DNA of 64,000 nt. Origin: Nocardia sputorum. GTDB lineage: Bacteria; Actinomycetota; Actinomycetes; Mycobacteriales; Mycobacteriaceae. A program made the position numbers and the translations under genes. Shown here in pieces: positions 10,866 through 57,570 of this stretch. A model generated the notes under the pieces. That model was not told the DNA's origin. It searched no databases and saw nothing but the letters and a program-made list of their open reading frames with translations. The DNA lies in contig NZ_AP026978.1 in assembly GCF_027924405.1 (NCBI RefSeq), positions 2,728,001-2,792,000 on the forward strand, read 5' to 3'. Position 1 is the stretch's first letter. Each line of letters starts with the position of its first letter.

Positions 10866-11777
10866 ATGTTTCGTCATACCGATCATCTGCAGTTCGATGT
10901 CAAGCCCGAGAAGCCCGATCCGGTGTATGCGCGCAAGCTCCAGGAGCTGATCGGTGGCGCGTTCGGGGAGATGACCGTCACCATGCAGTACCTGTTTCAA
11001 GGGTGGAATTGCCGGATGCCCGGCAAGTACAAGGACATGATCATGGATGTGGCGACCGAGGAGATCGGACACGTCGAGATGATCGCCACGATGATCGCGC
11101 GGCTGCTGGAAGGAGCCCCCGCGACGCGCGCTACCCAGGAAGCCGCGGCTGATCCGGTGGTGGCGGCGGTGCTGGGTGGGATGGATCCGCAGCAGGCGAT
11201 CGTCTCCGGGGGCGGGGCGTCGCTGTCGGACAGCAACGGGGTGCCGTGGAACGGCCGGTACATCGTGGCCAGCGGCAACCTCCTGGCCGACTTCCGCGCC
11301 AACGTGGCCGCCGAGTCCCACGGCCGCATCCAAACCGCGCGCTTGTACAACATGACCGATGACCCCGGGGTCAAGGACATGCTGAAGTTCAACCTCGCGC
11401 GGGACACCTACCACCAGAACCTCTGGCTCGCCGCGATCGAGCAGCTGAAGGAGGACGGATTGGAGGGCACGGTCACGCCGAACGCGTTGCTCGACGAGGA
11501 GCACGCCGAGCACGCGACCAGCCTCTGGCATCTGTCCGACGGCCCCGATGCGGGCGAGGGCCGGTGGGCGACCGGTGTCGCTGCGGACGGTGTGCACCAG
11601 AACGGCTTCCTCGCCGACCCGCAGCCGCTGGGTGACAAGGCCTCGGCGCCGCCGCCGGACCCGCAGCTGTACGCCACCTACGACGGCTCTCGAGGCAAGC
11701 CGCGTTCCGCGGCGTTGGGTACCGAGGCGGGACTGGTCGGCAAGGTCAAGGACGCCCTGGACCCCAGCAAGCCCTGA
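10866..11777 (+). CDS. Manganese (non-haem) catalase
   Basis: The 303-residue protein matches the di-manganese catalase family over its full length. The five metal ligands are in place: E35 (GAFGEM), E66 and H69 (EEIGHVEM), E150 (AAESHGR) and H183 (RDTYHQN), with nearly the same numbering as the lactobacillal enzyme. It disproportionates hydrogen peroxide in the cytosol without haem. The ATG at 10866 follows a GGAGGAG ribosome site; the 90-residue in-frame extension upstream is not used. The 286-bp upstream region is AT-rich just before the gene (around 10710-10770) and probably holds a stress-type promoter. The C-terminal tail (PLGDKASAPPPDPQ onward) is the usual disordered extension. Confidence 0.93.
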   Translation: MFRHTDHLQFDVKPEKPDPVYARKLQELIGGAFGEMTVTMQYLFQGWNCRMPGKYKDMIMDVATEEIGHVEMIATMIARLLEGAPATRATQEAAADPVVAAVLGGMDPQQAIVSGGGASLSDSNGVPWNGRYIVASGNLLADFRANVAAESHGRIQTARLYNMTDDPGVKDMLKFNLARDTYHQNLWLAAIEQLKEDGLEGTVTPNALLDEEHAEHATSLWHLSDGPDAGEGRWATGVAADGVHQNGFLADPQPLGDKASAPPPDPQLYATYDGSRGKPRSAALGTEAGLVGKVKDALDPSKP

Positions 11778-52691: not shown

Positions 52692-52720
52692 CGCGAAAGG
52701 GGACGTGTTTTCGCGTCAGG
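52687..52720. terminator. Bidirectional terminator containing both stop codons
   Basis: CCTGACGCGAAA (52687-52698) and TTTCGCGTCAGG (52709-52720) are exact inverse complements with a 10-nt loop. The TGA of the LLM gene (52689-52691) lies in the left arm, and the TGA of the opposing esterase gene (complement of 52716-52718) lies in the right arm, at mirrored positions. The A/T run at the loop end gives a short U-tract in each direction. Confidence 0.75.
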
Positions 52721-53783
52721 TGCCCAGCGCCGCGGCGAACACGGGCCACGACTTGTGCAGATCTTCCTGCCAGTAGGGCCAGGAGTGGGTGCCGTTGCCG
52801 CGCAGGTCGACGGTGGCGGGAATCGCCAGCTGGTCCAACCTTTCGCGGAGTTGACGGGTGCAGCGGTCGGCGAATGCCTCCAGCGCGCCGCCGATGAGGA
52901 GCTGGTCGATCAGTTTGCCGGAGTTGTGCTCTATACCGGAGCCGTGGAGGGTGTCGTGTGGTCCGGGTGCGCCGGTGCCGGTGGAGACGTAGATGGCGGT
53001 ACCGCGCAGTTTGTCGGCGTGTAGGTAGGGGTCGTTGGCCGCCCACGCCGGGTCCGTCGGCGGACCCCACATGTTCACCACGTTGCCCCGGCGCCCGCCC
53101 ACCACCGCGCTCACGATCACCTGCCCTTGCGGATCACTGGTGCGCACACACCCGGAATACGAGCCGATCGCCCGATACAACCCCGGCGCGGCCAACGCCA
53201 ACTGGAACACCGATGTACCCGCCATCGAGATCCCCGCGATCGCGTTCGCCCCGTTGCCGCCGAACCGCGCGTCCACCAACGGAGGCAACTCCCGAGTCAG
53301 GAACGTCGCCCACCGCTGCCGCCCCAACACCGGATCATCGGCCCGCCAATCGGTGAAATACGAACTGGCGCCCCCGAACGGGATCACCACATTCACCTGC
53401 TTGTCCCCGAAGAACTCCACCACATCCGTGCGGCTGAGCCAGTTGCCGTCGGCTCCGCCATCGATGCCGTTGAGCAGGTACAGCGTCGGGGCCGGAGCCG
53501 ATCTGTCGGCGGCCGGAAGGACGCGGACGGTCACGTCGTTCGCCATCGCGGCGGAGTGGACCGTCAGTTCCACCATCCGCCCCGGTCCCGGTGTGGCCGC
53601 GGCGATATGCGAACGATCCGGGGTCGCGGCGATCGACAAGGGAAGTTCCGGTGGGATCGGCTCGGCGCTCGTCGGTCCGGCCGCACCGGTCGCGAATCCG
53701 AAGGCGGCGACGCCCAGCGCCGCGACCAGCCGCGCGGCCCGCGCCGCGCCACGGTGATATGGCGGCGGGGCAAAGGCATCCAC
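52716..53783 (-). CDS. Antigen 85-like secreted esterase/mycolyltransferase, minus-strand copy
   Basis: From the GTG at 53783 the protein has 355 residues: a basic start, a hydrophobic signal segment (AARLVAALGVAAFGFATGAA) and an export site near TSAEP. The alpha/beta hydrolase domain follows with GISMAG (nucleophile S186), and GTHSWPYWQEDLHKSW holds the triad His. The family includes the Ag85 mycolyltransferases and nocardial esterases of the cell envelope. The AGGAAGG ribosome site favours this GTG over ATG 53822. Residues coded by 52947-53426 are identical in DNA to those of the divergent copy, while both ends differ, which indicates gene conversion. Confidence 0.85.
   Translation of the reverse strand: MDAFAPPPYHRGAARAARLVAALGVAAFGFATGAAGPTSAEPIPPELPLSIAATPDRSHIAAATPGPGRMVELTVHSAAMANDVTVRVLPAADRSAPAPTLYLLNGIDGGADGNWLSRTDVVEFFGDKQVNVVIPFGGASSYFTDWRADDPVLGRQRWATFLTRELPPLVDARFGGNGANAIAGISMAGTSVFQLALAAPGLYRAIGSYSGCVRTSDPQGQVIVSAVVGGRRGNVVNMWGPPTDPAWAANDPYLHADKLRGTAIYVSTGTGAPGPHDTLHGSGIEHNSGKLIDQLLIGGALEAFADRCTRQLRERLDQLAIPATVDLRGNGTHSWPYWQEDLHKSWPVFAAALGT
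52947..53426 (-). repeat. 480-bp exact inverted repeat, left copy
   Basis: This block is the exact reverse complement of 54370-54849: I compared it across its whole length and found no difference, including at third codon positions. Outside the borders the two genes differ at once (GATGTGG at one end; a C versus G after GACACCCTC at the other). The identity therefore reflects recent conversion or duplication, not protein constraint. It covers the catalytic Ser region. Confidence 0.95.
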
Positions 53784-54048
53784 ACGCGGCCTTCCTGCGC
53801 AGGCGGGACAGAACTCGGCCAACGTTAGGCCGCGACCGTCTCGGCGTGCAAGGCGTCGTCGCGCCCATTGGGGTCGATGGGCAGTTCACCCGCCTTCCCG
53901 CTGGGAACGGCCACAAGGTTGCGAGTTTCCGTGCGCGGCAGCGCAGGTGATGCGGTTGACTCGAGGTCGGCTCTCGTAGTCGTTGCCTGTTCCCCGCCCG
54001 CGGAGCCGAGAGTATCGGCCGGGGTGCGGCCTCGAGATCGGAGGTGCG

Positions 54049-55080
54049 ATGTCGCTCACCCGTTCGCGGACACGAATCCTGCTGACCGTCCTCGCGATTG
54101 CGGCCATGACCGCCGGATCCACCGGTGCGGCGACGGGCGAGCCTGCTCCGGATCTCGCCGCTGTGTCGGCTCCGGACGGATCCCGGATCCACGACATCCG
54201 CGCGGAGTCCGAGCGGGTGCTCGACGTCGGCGTGTACTCGACGGCGATGAACAGCGTGACCCGGGTGCTCGTCCTGCGCGCGGCCGAGCCGGAGCGGCCC
54301 GCGCCGACGTTCTATCTCCTCAACGGCGCCAACGGCGGCATCAGCGACGGAAGCTGGGCCGACCGGACTGATGTGGTGGAGTTCTTCGGGGACAAGCAGG
54401 TGAATGTGGTGATCCCGTTCGGGGGCGCCAGTTCGTATTTCACCGATTGGCGGGCCGATGATCCGGTGTTGGGGCGGCAGCGGTGGGCGACGTTCCTGAC
54501 TCGGGAGTTGCCTCCGTTGGTGGACGCGCGGTTCGGCGGCAACGGGGCGAACGCGATCGCGGGGATCTCGATGGCGGGTACATCGGTGTTCCAGTTGGCG
54601 TTGGCCGCGCCGGGGTTGTATCGGGCGATCGGCTCGTATTCCGGGTGTGTGCGCACCAGTGATCCGCAAGGGCAGGTGATCGTGAGCGCGGTGGTGGGCG
54701 GGCGCCGGGGCAACGTGGTGAACATGTGGGGTCCGCCGACGGACCCGGCGTGGGCGGCCAACGACCCCTACCTACACGCCGACAAACTGCGCGGTACCGC
54801 CATCTACGTCTCCACCGGCACCGGCGCACCCGGACCACACGACACCCTCGACGGCGCGCACGGGTCCGGGATACAGCTGGCCTACCAGTTGATCATCGGC
54901 GCTCCGATGGAAGCCGTCACCAATCTGTGCACGCGCCAACTCCGGGATCGGCTGCGCGATCTGGGTGTACCGGCCACGTTCGAGCTGCGTCCGAGCGGAA
55001 CTCACTCCTGGGGTTACTGGCAGGACGACCTGCACAAGTCATGGGACACGATCGGTAGCGCGCTCGCCGATCGTCCGTAG
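54049..55080 (+). CDS. Antigen 85-like secreted esterase/mycolyltransferase, plus-strand copy
   Basis: The 343-residue protein starts MSLTRSRTRILLTVLAIAAMTAG, a Sec signal peptide, and has GISMAG with nucleophile S174 and a C-terminal GTHSWGYWQDDLHKSW with the triad His. It should be exported and act on trehalose mycolates or other esters of the envelope. A GGAGG ribosome site precedes ATG 54049. It is divergent from its paralogue at 52716, with 265 bp between starts. The N-terminal part and the segment after the shared tract (AHGSGIQLAYQLIIGAPMEA) differ clearly from the paralogue, so two related but distinct proteins are made. Confidence 0.85.
   Translation: MSLTRSRTRILLTVLAIAAMTAGSTGAATGEPAPDLAAVSAPDGSRIHDIRAESERVLDVGVYSTAMNSVTRVLVLRAAEPERPAPTFYLLNGANGGISDGSWADRTDVVEFFGDKQVNVVIPFGGASSYFTDWRADDPVLGRQRWATFLTRELPPLVDARFGGNGANAIAGISMAGTSVFQLALAAPGLYRAIGSYSGCVRTSDPQGQVIVSAVVGGRRGNVVNMWGPPTDPAWAANDPYLHADKLRGTAIYVSTGTGAPGPHDTLDGAHGSGIQLAYQLIIGAPMEAVTNLCTRQLRDRLRDLGVPATFELRPSGTHSWGYWQDDLHKSWDTIGSALADRP
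54370..54849 (+). repeat. 480-bp exact inverted repeat, right copy
   Basis: Exact reverse complement of 52947-53426, in the plus-strand esterase gene. The two copies face each other across 943 bp that hold both N-termini and the shared promoter region. Recombination between them would invert that segment and exchange the 5' parts of the two genes. Confidence 0.95.
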
Positions 55081-55937: not shown

Positions 55938-57473
55938 TCATGTCTCCAGGAACGCCAGCATGTCCCGGCGGAGTTCCGGGTCGATCTCCCGCTCGGCGGC
56001 CGCCGCGACCCACTCGCGGGCTCGAGCCGGGCGAGTTTCCGGTGGCCAGGCGCCGAGCACGACGAGGGCGCCCCGGCGGCACCGGACGACCCGATTGCCG
56101 AGCGCGACCGGCAGTAGCGTGCGCCCGGCGCCTGGATGCTCGCGCAGATTCCAGACGATGACCTCGAACGCCCGGTCGGCCTCATAGCCGGGGCCCAGGC
56201 CCAGCGCTTCGGTCGGGCCGGTCGCCAGATCGTCGAGCGGAAGCAGCTCTTCGGCCAGAGCAACGACCTGCTCGACCGCGGTCCGGCCGGCATGGTGCAT
56301 TGCCCACTGCCAGACATAGGCGTTGTGGGGATCGCTCCGCAAGCGCGCGAACGCGTCCGGCAGCGCGCTCATCCCCAGTCGTCCCGCGCAGGAGAGCGCG
56401 ACCTCGAACGCGTGGGACCGGCGCTCGCCGGGAGTCTCGGAACCGGCCGGGACGGCGTGGGTCGCGAGTTCGCGCGTCACCAGATCGCGCCACCGCTGCT
56501 GCGCGGTGAGGGAGGCGTACCTGGCGCGCAGCCGGTCCGGCTCGCCGTCGGGCCACTCGAAGGCGGTGTCGGACGTCAGGCGTGCGAGAGTCAGCGCCGC
56601 GTCGAGCCGCCCGAGGGTGGGCTCGGCGCGGGCGAGCAGCTCGGCGAAGCGGTGCAGGGCGGGCACCGCGTCGTCGTAGTCGGACATGTCTTCGGCGGGG
56701 CCGCCGAGCGCGAGGGCCCGCAGGATGTCCGCCGCGCCGTCGAGCAGGGCGTCGTCGATGTCGTCGTCGAGCAGAGCCTCGTAGAGACCGCCGGTCGTGG
56801 CGGCGATCCACGCGAGATACTCGTTCATCACGCCGTTGCGGAAGCCGCCCCGCAGCAACCACGCTTTGATGTCGGGATCGACGCAGCCCTTCAGCCGTTC
56901 CACGGCGTGGATGCGCCCCCAGCCGTCGAGGCGCTGGGCCAGTTCGAAGACCGCGCGGTGCCGATCGGGCTGGGTTTTCATGAGCGCGACGACGGCGAAG
57001 AGGGCGAATTCCTCCAGCGATCCGAGCAACTGGAGCAGCTCGCGGTCGCGCTCGTCGCCACACGTGCCCAGCAGCACGATGCCGAGCTTGGCGACCTCGC
57101 GCCGGGTGGCGTTCTCGGTCACGAATCGTGCTGCGCGATGGAGCTTTTCGAGTGGATACGAGCGTGAGCTGAGTTCCGTCACCAGGTCGTCCGCGACGTG
57201 CACCGCCCGCAGGCCGGCGAAGTGCTCGAGCAGGCGGGCCGGATCGTCGAGGTCGGCGAGGATGCGATCGGTGAGTTCGGCGACGGGGTGCGTGTCCGAC
57301 CCGAAGTGATGTGTGCTGACGCCGTCGTAGACGACGCTGGGAAGGGCGATTTCGCCCGCTTCGTGGGGCCGCTCGTCCGGTAGGGGGTACCCATCACGTG
57401 GCCAAGGGCCGGGACCGTGCAGGGCGGAGAGAGATAGGGCGTGGGCCACGAACGTGGCCGCGTGGGGGCTCAT
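55938..57473 (-). CDS. Helical-repeat protein of unknown function, 511 residues
   Basis: After a mixed N-terminus (residues 1-60), the protein is almost entirely helical, with successive 35-45-residue units such as ELLQLLGSLEEFALFAVVALMK, RIHAVERLKGCVDPDIKAWLLRGG and VNEYLAWIAATTGGLYEALLDDD-like segments. This is what HEAT/ARM-like repeat proteins look like; I cannot assign a family and see no catalytic motif. An AATTACTATCA operator half-site lies 98-124 bp upstream (57571-57597), the same element as before the next MpaB gene, so it probably belongs to the TetR regulon at 58760. ATG 57473 is preferred; ATG 57566 would overlap nothing but reads poorly. Confidence 0.6.
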   Translation of the reverse strand: MSPHAATFVAHALSLSALHGPGPWPRDGYPLPDERPHEAGEIALPSVVYDGVSTHHFGSDTHPVAELTDRILADLDDPARLLEHFAGLRAVHVADDLVTELSSRSYPLEKLHRAARFVTENATRREVAKLGIVLLGTCGDERDRELLQLLGSLEEFALFAVVALMKTQPDRHRAVFELAQRLDGWGRIHAVERLKGCVDPDIKAWLLRGGFRNGVMNEYLAWIAATTGGLYEALLDDDIDDALLDGAADILRALALGGPAEDMSDYDDAVPALHRFAELLARAEPTLGRLDAALTLARLTSDTAFEWPDGEPDRLRARYASLTAQQRWRDLVTRELATHAVPAGSETPGERRSHAFEVALSCAGRLGMSALPDAFARLRSDPHNAYVWQWAMHHAGRTAVEQVVALAEELLPLDDLATGPTEALGLGPGYEADRAFEVIVWNLREHPGAGRTLLPVALGNRVVRCRRGALVVLGAWPPETRPARAREWVAAAAEREIDPELRRDMLAFLET

Positions 57474-57570
57474 CGAGCCGGGCGCAGGACGCCCTTTCCG
57501 TGGGAGATCATGGACATGAGGATGGCAGCTCGCCGGGCGGGACGCAACCGCGCCTCGCCCGCGCATTCTC

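Follow-up and report, generated by a model that had tools for sequence, protein, structure and literature searches.

This study concerns a pair of divergent mycoloyltransferase/antigen 85-like genes, g1 and g2, in a 64,000-nucleotide window of the Nocardia sputorum chromosome (NZ_AP026978.1, positions 2,728,001 to 2,792,000; designated W). The middle parts of the two genes form an inverted repeat, and comparison with other Nocardia genomes strongly supports the conclusion that the arms of this repeat have been homogenised repeatedly by gene conversion, i.e., that they undergo concerted evolution. Inversion of the spacer between the arms, with a swap of partners between the two genes, has also occurred and is documented between species. 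The unexpected part of the result is a strand skew in the converted arms. We tentatively propose, as a reading that we hold to be rather less than evenly likely, that NucS filters conversion base by base and that the arms are a readable record of strand polarity and starting point, alongside the chimera-making inversion.

The chromosome is complete in one contig of 7,431,165 bases (7.43 Mb). Positions without a prefix are those of the window, and G and L codes denote the genomes and loci compared. The two genes and the parts of the repeat are as follows.

52716..53783, minus strand: g1, mycoloyltransferase/antigen 85-like, 355 amino acids, PF00756; likely GTG start at 53783 (the listed open reading frame [ORF] extends to 53822)
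54049..55080, plus strand: g2, the divergent paralogue, 343 amino acids, PF00756; ATG at 54049 as the likely start (the listed ORF runs from 53983)
52947..53426, minus strand: left arm, 160 codons of the g1 core including the presumed catalytic Ser (exact-repeat comparison)
54370..54849, plus strand: right arm, the same core of g2 (exact-repeat comparison)
53427..54369, no strand: invertible spacer, made up of the N-terminal parts of both genes and 265 bp of intergenic DNA, 53784-54048 (its homologue in G085 is inverted)
52716..52946, minus strand: outer C-terminal module of g1 with the presumed triad Glu and His, not homogenised (20-codon bin comparison; Glu by motif)
54850..55080, plus strand: outer C-terminal module of g2 with the presumed triad Glu and His, not homogenised (20-codon bin comparison; Glu by motif)

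A Pfam profile search matched both genes to PF00756 (E values of 1e-32 and 3.9e-31). In a sequence search carried out with g2 only, the top solved relative was the mycoloyltransferase Cmt1 (E value of 1.7e-65), and antigen 85-A came next (E value of 1.7e-27). Both products are thus predicted members of the mycoloyltransferase/antigen 85-like esterase family. The GISMAG serine and the THSW histidine were found in both proteins, and for g2 their positions were aligned; the glutamate of what we presume to be a Ser-Glu-His triad was placed by motif. The signal peptides of g1 and g2 were read by eye.

The segments 52947-53426 and 54370-54849 constitute a maximal exact inverted run of 480 bp with 0 mismatches and 943 bp between the arms. 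The run is codon-aligned in both genes, and the base-identical repeat described in the first-pass annotation of this DNA is thereby confirmed, in frame. When mismatches were allowed, a repeat search extended the repeat to 511 nt at 98% identity. The only 40-mers that recur in the 64-kb window, whether direct or inverted, are those of this arm pair, which excludes chance as the source of the inverted repeat. When the W paralogues were compared in 20-codon bins, identity was 100% inside the run, 50-82% on the N-terminal side and 63-71% on the C-terminal side, the bins next to the run borders straddling them. The sequence had been said to change abruptly at both borders. This holds on the outer side, where four of the five bases before 52947 match and homology then breaks, whereas on the inner side the change is gradual, with mismatches building up across about 25 bases. 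As annotated, the 943-bp segment between the copies carries both N-termini, and its intergenic region (53784-54048) presumably must hold both promoters.

To place the repeat in the genus, 150 genomes were searched, two candidates being scored per genome, and 26 genomes were re-examined; more pairs may exist. A family-wide search gave a match in 399 of 401 genomes, reported as best matches only and hence without a pair count. In all, 21 divergent Nocardia pairs were compared, of which 4 have long exact arms (W, 480 bp; G125, 512 bp; G124, 491 bp; G085, 467 bp); the longest exact inverted run in the 17 others ranged from under 30 up to 141 bp. Looking for conversion tracts in related strains had been suggested at the outset, and the homogenised arms of 512, 491 and 467 bp in three other genomes are what this comparison yielded. 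G125 shares the gene neighbours of W, and G124 and G085 have their pairs in another neighbourhood. In all four genomes the core is 100% identical between the genome's own two genes, compared with 46-94% in the 20-codon bins outside or across the borders.

The arms of W and G125 differ from each other at 46 of 480 sites. Of these, 40 fall on third codon positions; counted by codon, 41 changes are synonymous and 3 nonsynonymous. Each of the two genomes carries its own arm version twice. Protein constraint is rejected as the cause of the identity, as the first-pass annotation had argued. A fifth genome, G106, is informative through its contig ends. Its flanks are about 89-95% identical to those of W, and two of its contigs end, at the arms, in exactly 127 bp of mutual inverted identity:

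G106 contig C68, end: inside the homologue of the left arm 52947..53426 (contig comparison)
G106 contig C71, start: inside the homologue of the right arm 54370..54849 (contig comparison)

These ends look as if the assembler had left a repeat unresolved. Three of 121 positions differ from the W arms, and they are the identical three on both sides; the homologous spacer was not found in the G106 assembly. Homogenisation is thus seen in four genomes of two lineages, plus G106 via its contig ends, and the flanking parts, unlike the copied core, group by orthology. Because the arms are identical within genomes and divergent between genomes, the homogenisation must have been recurrent. Of the earlier proposal of a recent gene conversion, the conversion stands; a single recent event does not, since each genome has its own exact arms and the core tree likewise indicates recurrence in two lineages.

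Perfect identity by itself would also fit a recent 480-bp segmental duplication, or an assembly collapse, without ongoing conversion. We give this explanation almost no weight: gene homology continues on both sides of the run at 50-82%, pairs with separate N and C lineages are present in 21 Nocardia loci, and four genomes each have their own exact arm sequence. Moreover, the G000 and G085 assemblies are single contigs, and, judged from the assemblies, a collapse artefact is unlikely. Tandem antigen 85-like pairs, used as controls (G020, G021, G062, G096 and G193), were in no case homogenised, with core identities of 71-82%.

The core tree groups the two copies from W and the two from G125 with the g1 orthologues of exalbida, gamkensis and arthritidis, at a support of 100/97. 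In these three species (L155, L156 and L157), g1 lies between the same neighbours with no g2 beside it, although in the arthritidis stretch the luciferase-like gene could not be located. The grouping suggests that the donor in the W lineage was mainly g1, copied to g2. The set includes no unconverted g2 of the W lineage, which counts against a firmer statement, and the donor is only inferred. As a separate observation, locus L165 (G144) has three antigen 85-like genes in a stretch of ~10 kb, one of them on the opposite strand to the other two; they are 73-81% alike in the core and are not homogenised.

The spacer of G085 is inverted between collinear flanks relative to every one of the 11 syntenic loci; these 11 are collinear with each other in all 55 comparisons. 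In the comparison of G124 with G085, spacer positions 2-990 of 993 bp align with positions 26-976 of 1003 bp in the orientation opposite to that of the flanks. The spacers of W and G125 are collinear with each other. The partners of the N- and C-terminal parts have been swapped correspondingly. A first crosswise N/C similarity test on 18 pairs scored G085 as switched relative to the 17 others, three of them weakly; with 21 pairs, 20 of 20 comparisons involving G085 were switched, and 190 of 190 others were unswitched.

Trees were built from 45 rows (the 21 pairs and 3 single genes). G074 was excluded for want of a pair, G106 because it breaks off at the arms, and L046, L058 and L062 because their species were already represented. 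For the N-part tree, the bootstrap had yet to converge. The N-part tree placed G124_P with G085_P (100/93), and the C-part tree placed G124_P with G085_M (98/94). Approximately unbiased tests, for groups that were named after the similarity profiles had been seen, rejected the unswitched groupings for the C part (p values of 5e-5 and 1e-42) and for the N part (8e-7 and 4e-6). The suggestion that recombination could invert the spacer, swapping signal peptides and 5' parts between the genes, is thus borne out by G085 on an evolutionary time scale. The phase of G124 is common to all pairs other than G085, and the G085 orientation is therefore most simply the derived state.

The partner swap alone could also come from two conversions, that is, from separate exchanges of the N or C segments without inversion of the spacer. 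We consider this very improbable, as nearly the whole G085 spacer, including the intergenic DNA, lies opposite to both flanks, and one inversion is enough to produce this. What does weigh against a broader conclusion is that the inversion was found in one genome only (one of four long-arm pairs versus none of the 17 others), which is too few to tie it to arm identity. Further apparent inversions, of G016 (three) or G028 (one) against the G090/G026/G015 group, were rejected; their scores were near-equal or low (<=100 bits), and neither the phases nor the trees supported them.

It is highly probable, in our judgement, that intrachromosomal conversion of the ~160-codon core together with an occasional spacer-inverting crossover accounts for these observations. 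Homologous recombination between arms that face each other over about 1 kb would homogenise the core repeatedly; most exchanges would merely copy the core, and a rare crossover would invert the spacer. Such an inversion would fuse one gene's promoter, signal peptide and N-part to the C-part of the other. With the presumed Ser in the shared arm and the Glu and His in the C-part, both hybrids would keep all three residues. As far as the sequences allow a prediction, the hybrids should remain enzymes, and the functional effect should be modest. The mechanism of conversion and inversion would be of the RecA type. Identical 517-bp fragments recombine in Mycobacterium smegmatis at ~2.4e-6, and ~140-fold less at 90% identity (PMC5290159; papers are cited here by accession). 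Such a drop in recombination with divergence would account for finding pairs in two states only, fully identical and clearly diverged.

The anatomy of the locus resembles that of known invertible loci, and, with the inversion in G085, this raised the question of a dedicated phase-variation switch, in which a recombinase flips the spacer often and a benefit comes from swapping N/C partners or promoters. PF00589 and PF00239, the only two recombinase families searched, had no match inside the window; the nearest integrase is ~72 kb from the repeats and the nearest resolvase >600 kb. The arm ends are variable (467-512 bp), with no short fixed site evident, and the ends of the conversion tracts vary between genomes and fall where homology stops. 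The empty result for the two families and the variable tract ends at the limits of homology make homologous recombination the likelier route of inversion. In addition, the common orientation is retained in three of the four resolved long-arm genomes, and this speaks against random flipping at a very high frequency. A dedicated switch is accordingly improbable in our estimate.

Inverted repeats that exchange gene ends are known from other organisms. In the sap locus of Campylobacter fetus, inverted surface-protein genes share identical 5' regions, a promoter-bearing segment inverts, and whole cassettes are exchanged under one promoter. At the Nocardia locus, by contrast, the promoter side stays with each gene, and it is the middle that is shared. 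Inversion at sap occurs also without RecA, according to a title cited in PMC5634654. In Ureaplasma UU172/mba (PMC3047005) and pneumococcal hsdS (PMC4948785), inverted repeats likewise lie in or beside coding regions, and inversion alters the joined or expressed ends. The Ureaplasma system, however, is described as site-specific and as frequent phase variation (PMC3047005), and hsdS undergoes extensive inversions that give cell-to-cell diversity in a clonal population (PMC4948785). The Nocardia locus differs from both in its long homologous arms and in the lack of a PF00589 or PF00239 match in the window. The nearest published mechanism is that of the Saccharomyces flip/flop region, in which recurrent homogenisation preserves the likeness of inverted paralogues within species and the intervening segment inverts on an evolutionary time scale, while the region is stable in laboratory culture (PMC9731477). 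There, the arms are 4 kb and the segment is 24 kb with 15 genes (PMC9731477), whereas the Nocardia arms lie inside two coding regions, and inversion yields chimeric proteins.

The base composition of the arms was assessed at fourfold sites of the coding strand, with G and T classed as K and A and C as M. In the inner four fifths of the arm (columns 250-378), the G/T fraction reached 0.89 for the four homogenised pairs, with both arms included; it was 0.50 for the 17 others and 0.68 for the three single g1 genes. In the inner and outer gene parts it was 0.51 and 0.46 for the homogenised pairs and 0.53 and 0.41 for the other pairs; within the same genes, the G/T skew is thus confined to the converted tract. 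The control tandem pairs had a left-part G/T fraction of 0.23-0.54. Spearman correlations between pair identity and skew, not corrected for kinship, were 0.71 for the left and -0.60 for the right. At fourfold sites, the single g1 arms of L155, L156 and L157 were slightly G/T-rich (0.61-0.65), perhaps the fading remnant of an earlier conversion.

Changes were polarised at sites with at least 75% outgroup agreement only (63 and 39 fourfold sites in 129 codon columns). In the W and G124 arms, M>K changes were found at 23 of 36 sites and K>M changes at 4 of 66. The corresponding counts in the inner and outer parts, taken as a control, were 21 of 88 and 21 of 68. G125 and G085, the history of which is shared with W and G124, gave 30 of 36 and 3 of 66. 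At twofold pyrimidine sites, T accounted for 55 of 96 (one arm per genome) versus 224 of 831.

The outer end of the W arm departs from this pattern:

54757..54849, plus strand: A/C-rich arm end, with a flip from G/T to A/C near 54757 (mirrored by 52947-53039 in the left arm; change point at column 379, K from 0.80 to 0.13, difference in log-likelihood of 17.7)

The polarised changes at the W outer end were K>M at 8 of 8 sites and M>K at 0 of 9; for G125 the numbers were 2 versus 1. The best split columns were 379 for W, 359 and 391 for G125, 390 for G124 and 404 for G085.

A possible source of this pattern is NucS, the actinobacterial mismatch endonuclease, which prefers G-T, G-G and T-T mismatches and is weak or inactive on others, A-C above all (PMC8228993). 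With oligonucleotides in M. smegmatis, C-C, A-A, A-C and A-G mismatches were accepted, and G-T and G-G were not; the effect on a neighbouring accepted mismatch was only moderate (PMC11551744). During conversion, NucS would reject G-T, G-G and T-T mismatches in the heteroduplex but not A-C, C-C or A-A. An incoming strand might then turn G/T to A/C but never the reverse, and the opposite strand would grow G/T-rich. A break near the flip, with newly synthesised strands annealing to either side of it, would leave a coding strand that is G/T-rich before the flip and A/C-rich after it, like that of W. That repeated conversion under NucS filtering drives the coding strand to G/T wherever it is the template strand that comes in, and to A/C beyond the initiation site, is in our view a serious possibility that falls a little short of an even chance. 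NucS (PF01939) was found in all five genomes searched and the MutL family (PF01119) in none of the five.

The skew could equally have arisen from deamination, transcription-linked mutation, GC-biased conversion, codon selection or regional bias, and we judge it an even question whether causes of this kind, rather than NucS, are responsible. A>G plus C>T changes on one exposed strand would also enrich G/T, two background genes have a similar skew, and the A/C end is weakly supported. Deamination, however, predicts neither the preponderance of C>G over C>T as the commonest arm change against the outgroups (W, 8/1; G125, 9/6; G124, 7/5; G085, 9/5; sum, 33 versus 17, with shared changes counted per genome) nor the purine share at fourfold sites of 0.76 versus 0.51. 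GC-biased conversion and codon optimisation are at odds with the raised T at twofold pyrimidine sites and with the frequent GGG and TTG codons of the arms. The lack of skew in those parts of the two genes that flank the arm on its inner and outer sides also speaks against causes of this kind.

Several observations weigh against the NucS proposal. A background was compiled from 6374 windows of 75 fourfold sites in 444 ORFs of the loci compared (mean, 0.49; 99.9th percentile, 0.795), and the W arm, at 0.80, reaches only about the 99.9th percentile of it; the arm maxima of G125 (0.91), G124 (0.93) and G085 (0.92) stand outside the background ORF list. Unrelated genes reach G/T fractions of 0.83-0.87: a katG-like gene at 0.87 and a luciferase-like one at 0.83 exceed the W arm with no repeat inside their loci. 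The pooled A/C end is no stronger in homogenised arms (K of 0.33 versus 0.32), and in columns 379-409 G124 and G085 have 4 and 8 M>K changes, respectively, and none of the K>M type; given this opposite direction, the position of the flip, if it is real, differs between genomes. Work on M. tuberculosis, available as a preprint, points to less NucS repair during recombination (PMC13061034). Finally, a MutS-family ATPase (PF00488, MutS_V) is matched in G124 and G085, and no match was found in G000, G125 or G106. The neighbouring PF00488 matches from the profile search are as follows.

G124:C1:4178055-4179955: PF00488 match
G085:C1:5123801-5125692 and 5428478-5430447: PF00488 matches

The literature on the NucS/EndoMS recombination barrier agrees with the proposal in the preference for G-T, G-G and T-T and in the fall of recombination of 517-bp fragments with identity; it concerns laboratory assays, whereas natural conversion tracts are considered here (PMC5290159, PMC8228993 and PMC11551744). 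In the excerpts of the NucS literature, no description was found of a strand-asymmetric base signature in natural conversion tracts, and no publication naming this locus or skew was found in the open-licence literature. The study of M. tuberculosis paralogues also deals with conversion in a mycolic-acid bacterium and discusses a base-change bias with NucS; it differs in a median tract of 101 bp and an enrichment of T>C, read as reduced NucS action (PMC13061034). The Nocardia locus has homogenised inverted arms of 467-512 bp, an inversion and a G/T strand skew.

Concerted evolution of inverted coding paralogues and the resulting inversion in a relative can be followed here, with each step placeable on a tree, and what results is that two secreted envelope enzymes of a mycolic-acid bacterium exchange partners. 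If the NucS reading of the skew is true, the specificity of NucS known from cleavage assays and recombineering leaves a footprint in natural genomes, and converted tracts, their strand polarity and their starting points can be found from sequence. It would also test whether NucS acts during recombination, which is doubted in the preprint (PMC13061034).

The strongest background G/T skew belongs to a katG-like peroxidase gene of Nocardia vaccinii (L060:363-2627, minus strand; 0.87 over 75 fourfold sites). In the window, the gene pair has luciferase-like and DUF1684 genes on one side and an ORF of 201 amino acids without a Pfam match on the other. An ORF of 542 amino acids (55938-57566, minus strand) has no Pfam match at an E value of 0.001; it is kept beside the pair in G125 (80%) and G106 (92%). 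In G106 (L153, about 11167-11538), the DUF1684 gene adjoining the pair is matched in no more than two pieces and may be shortened.

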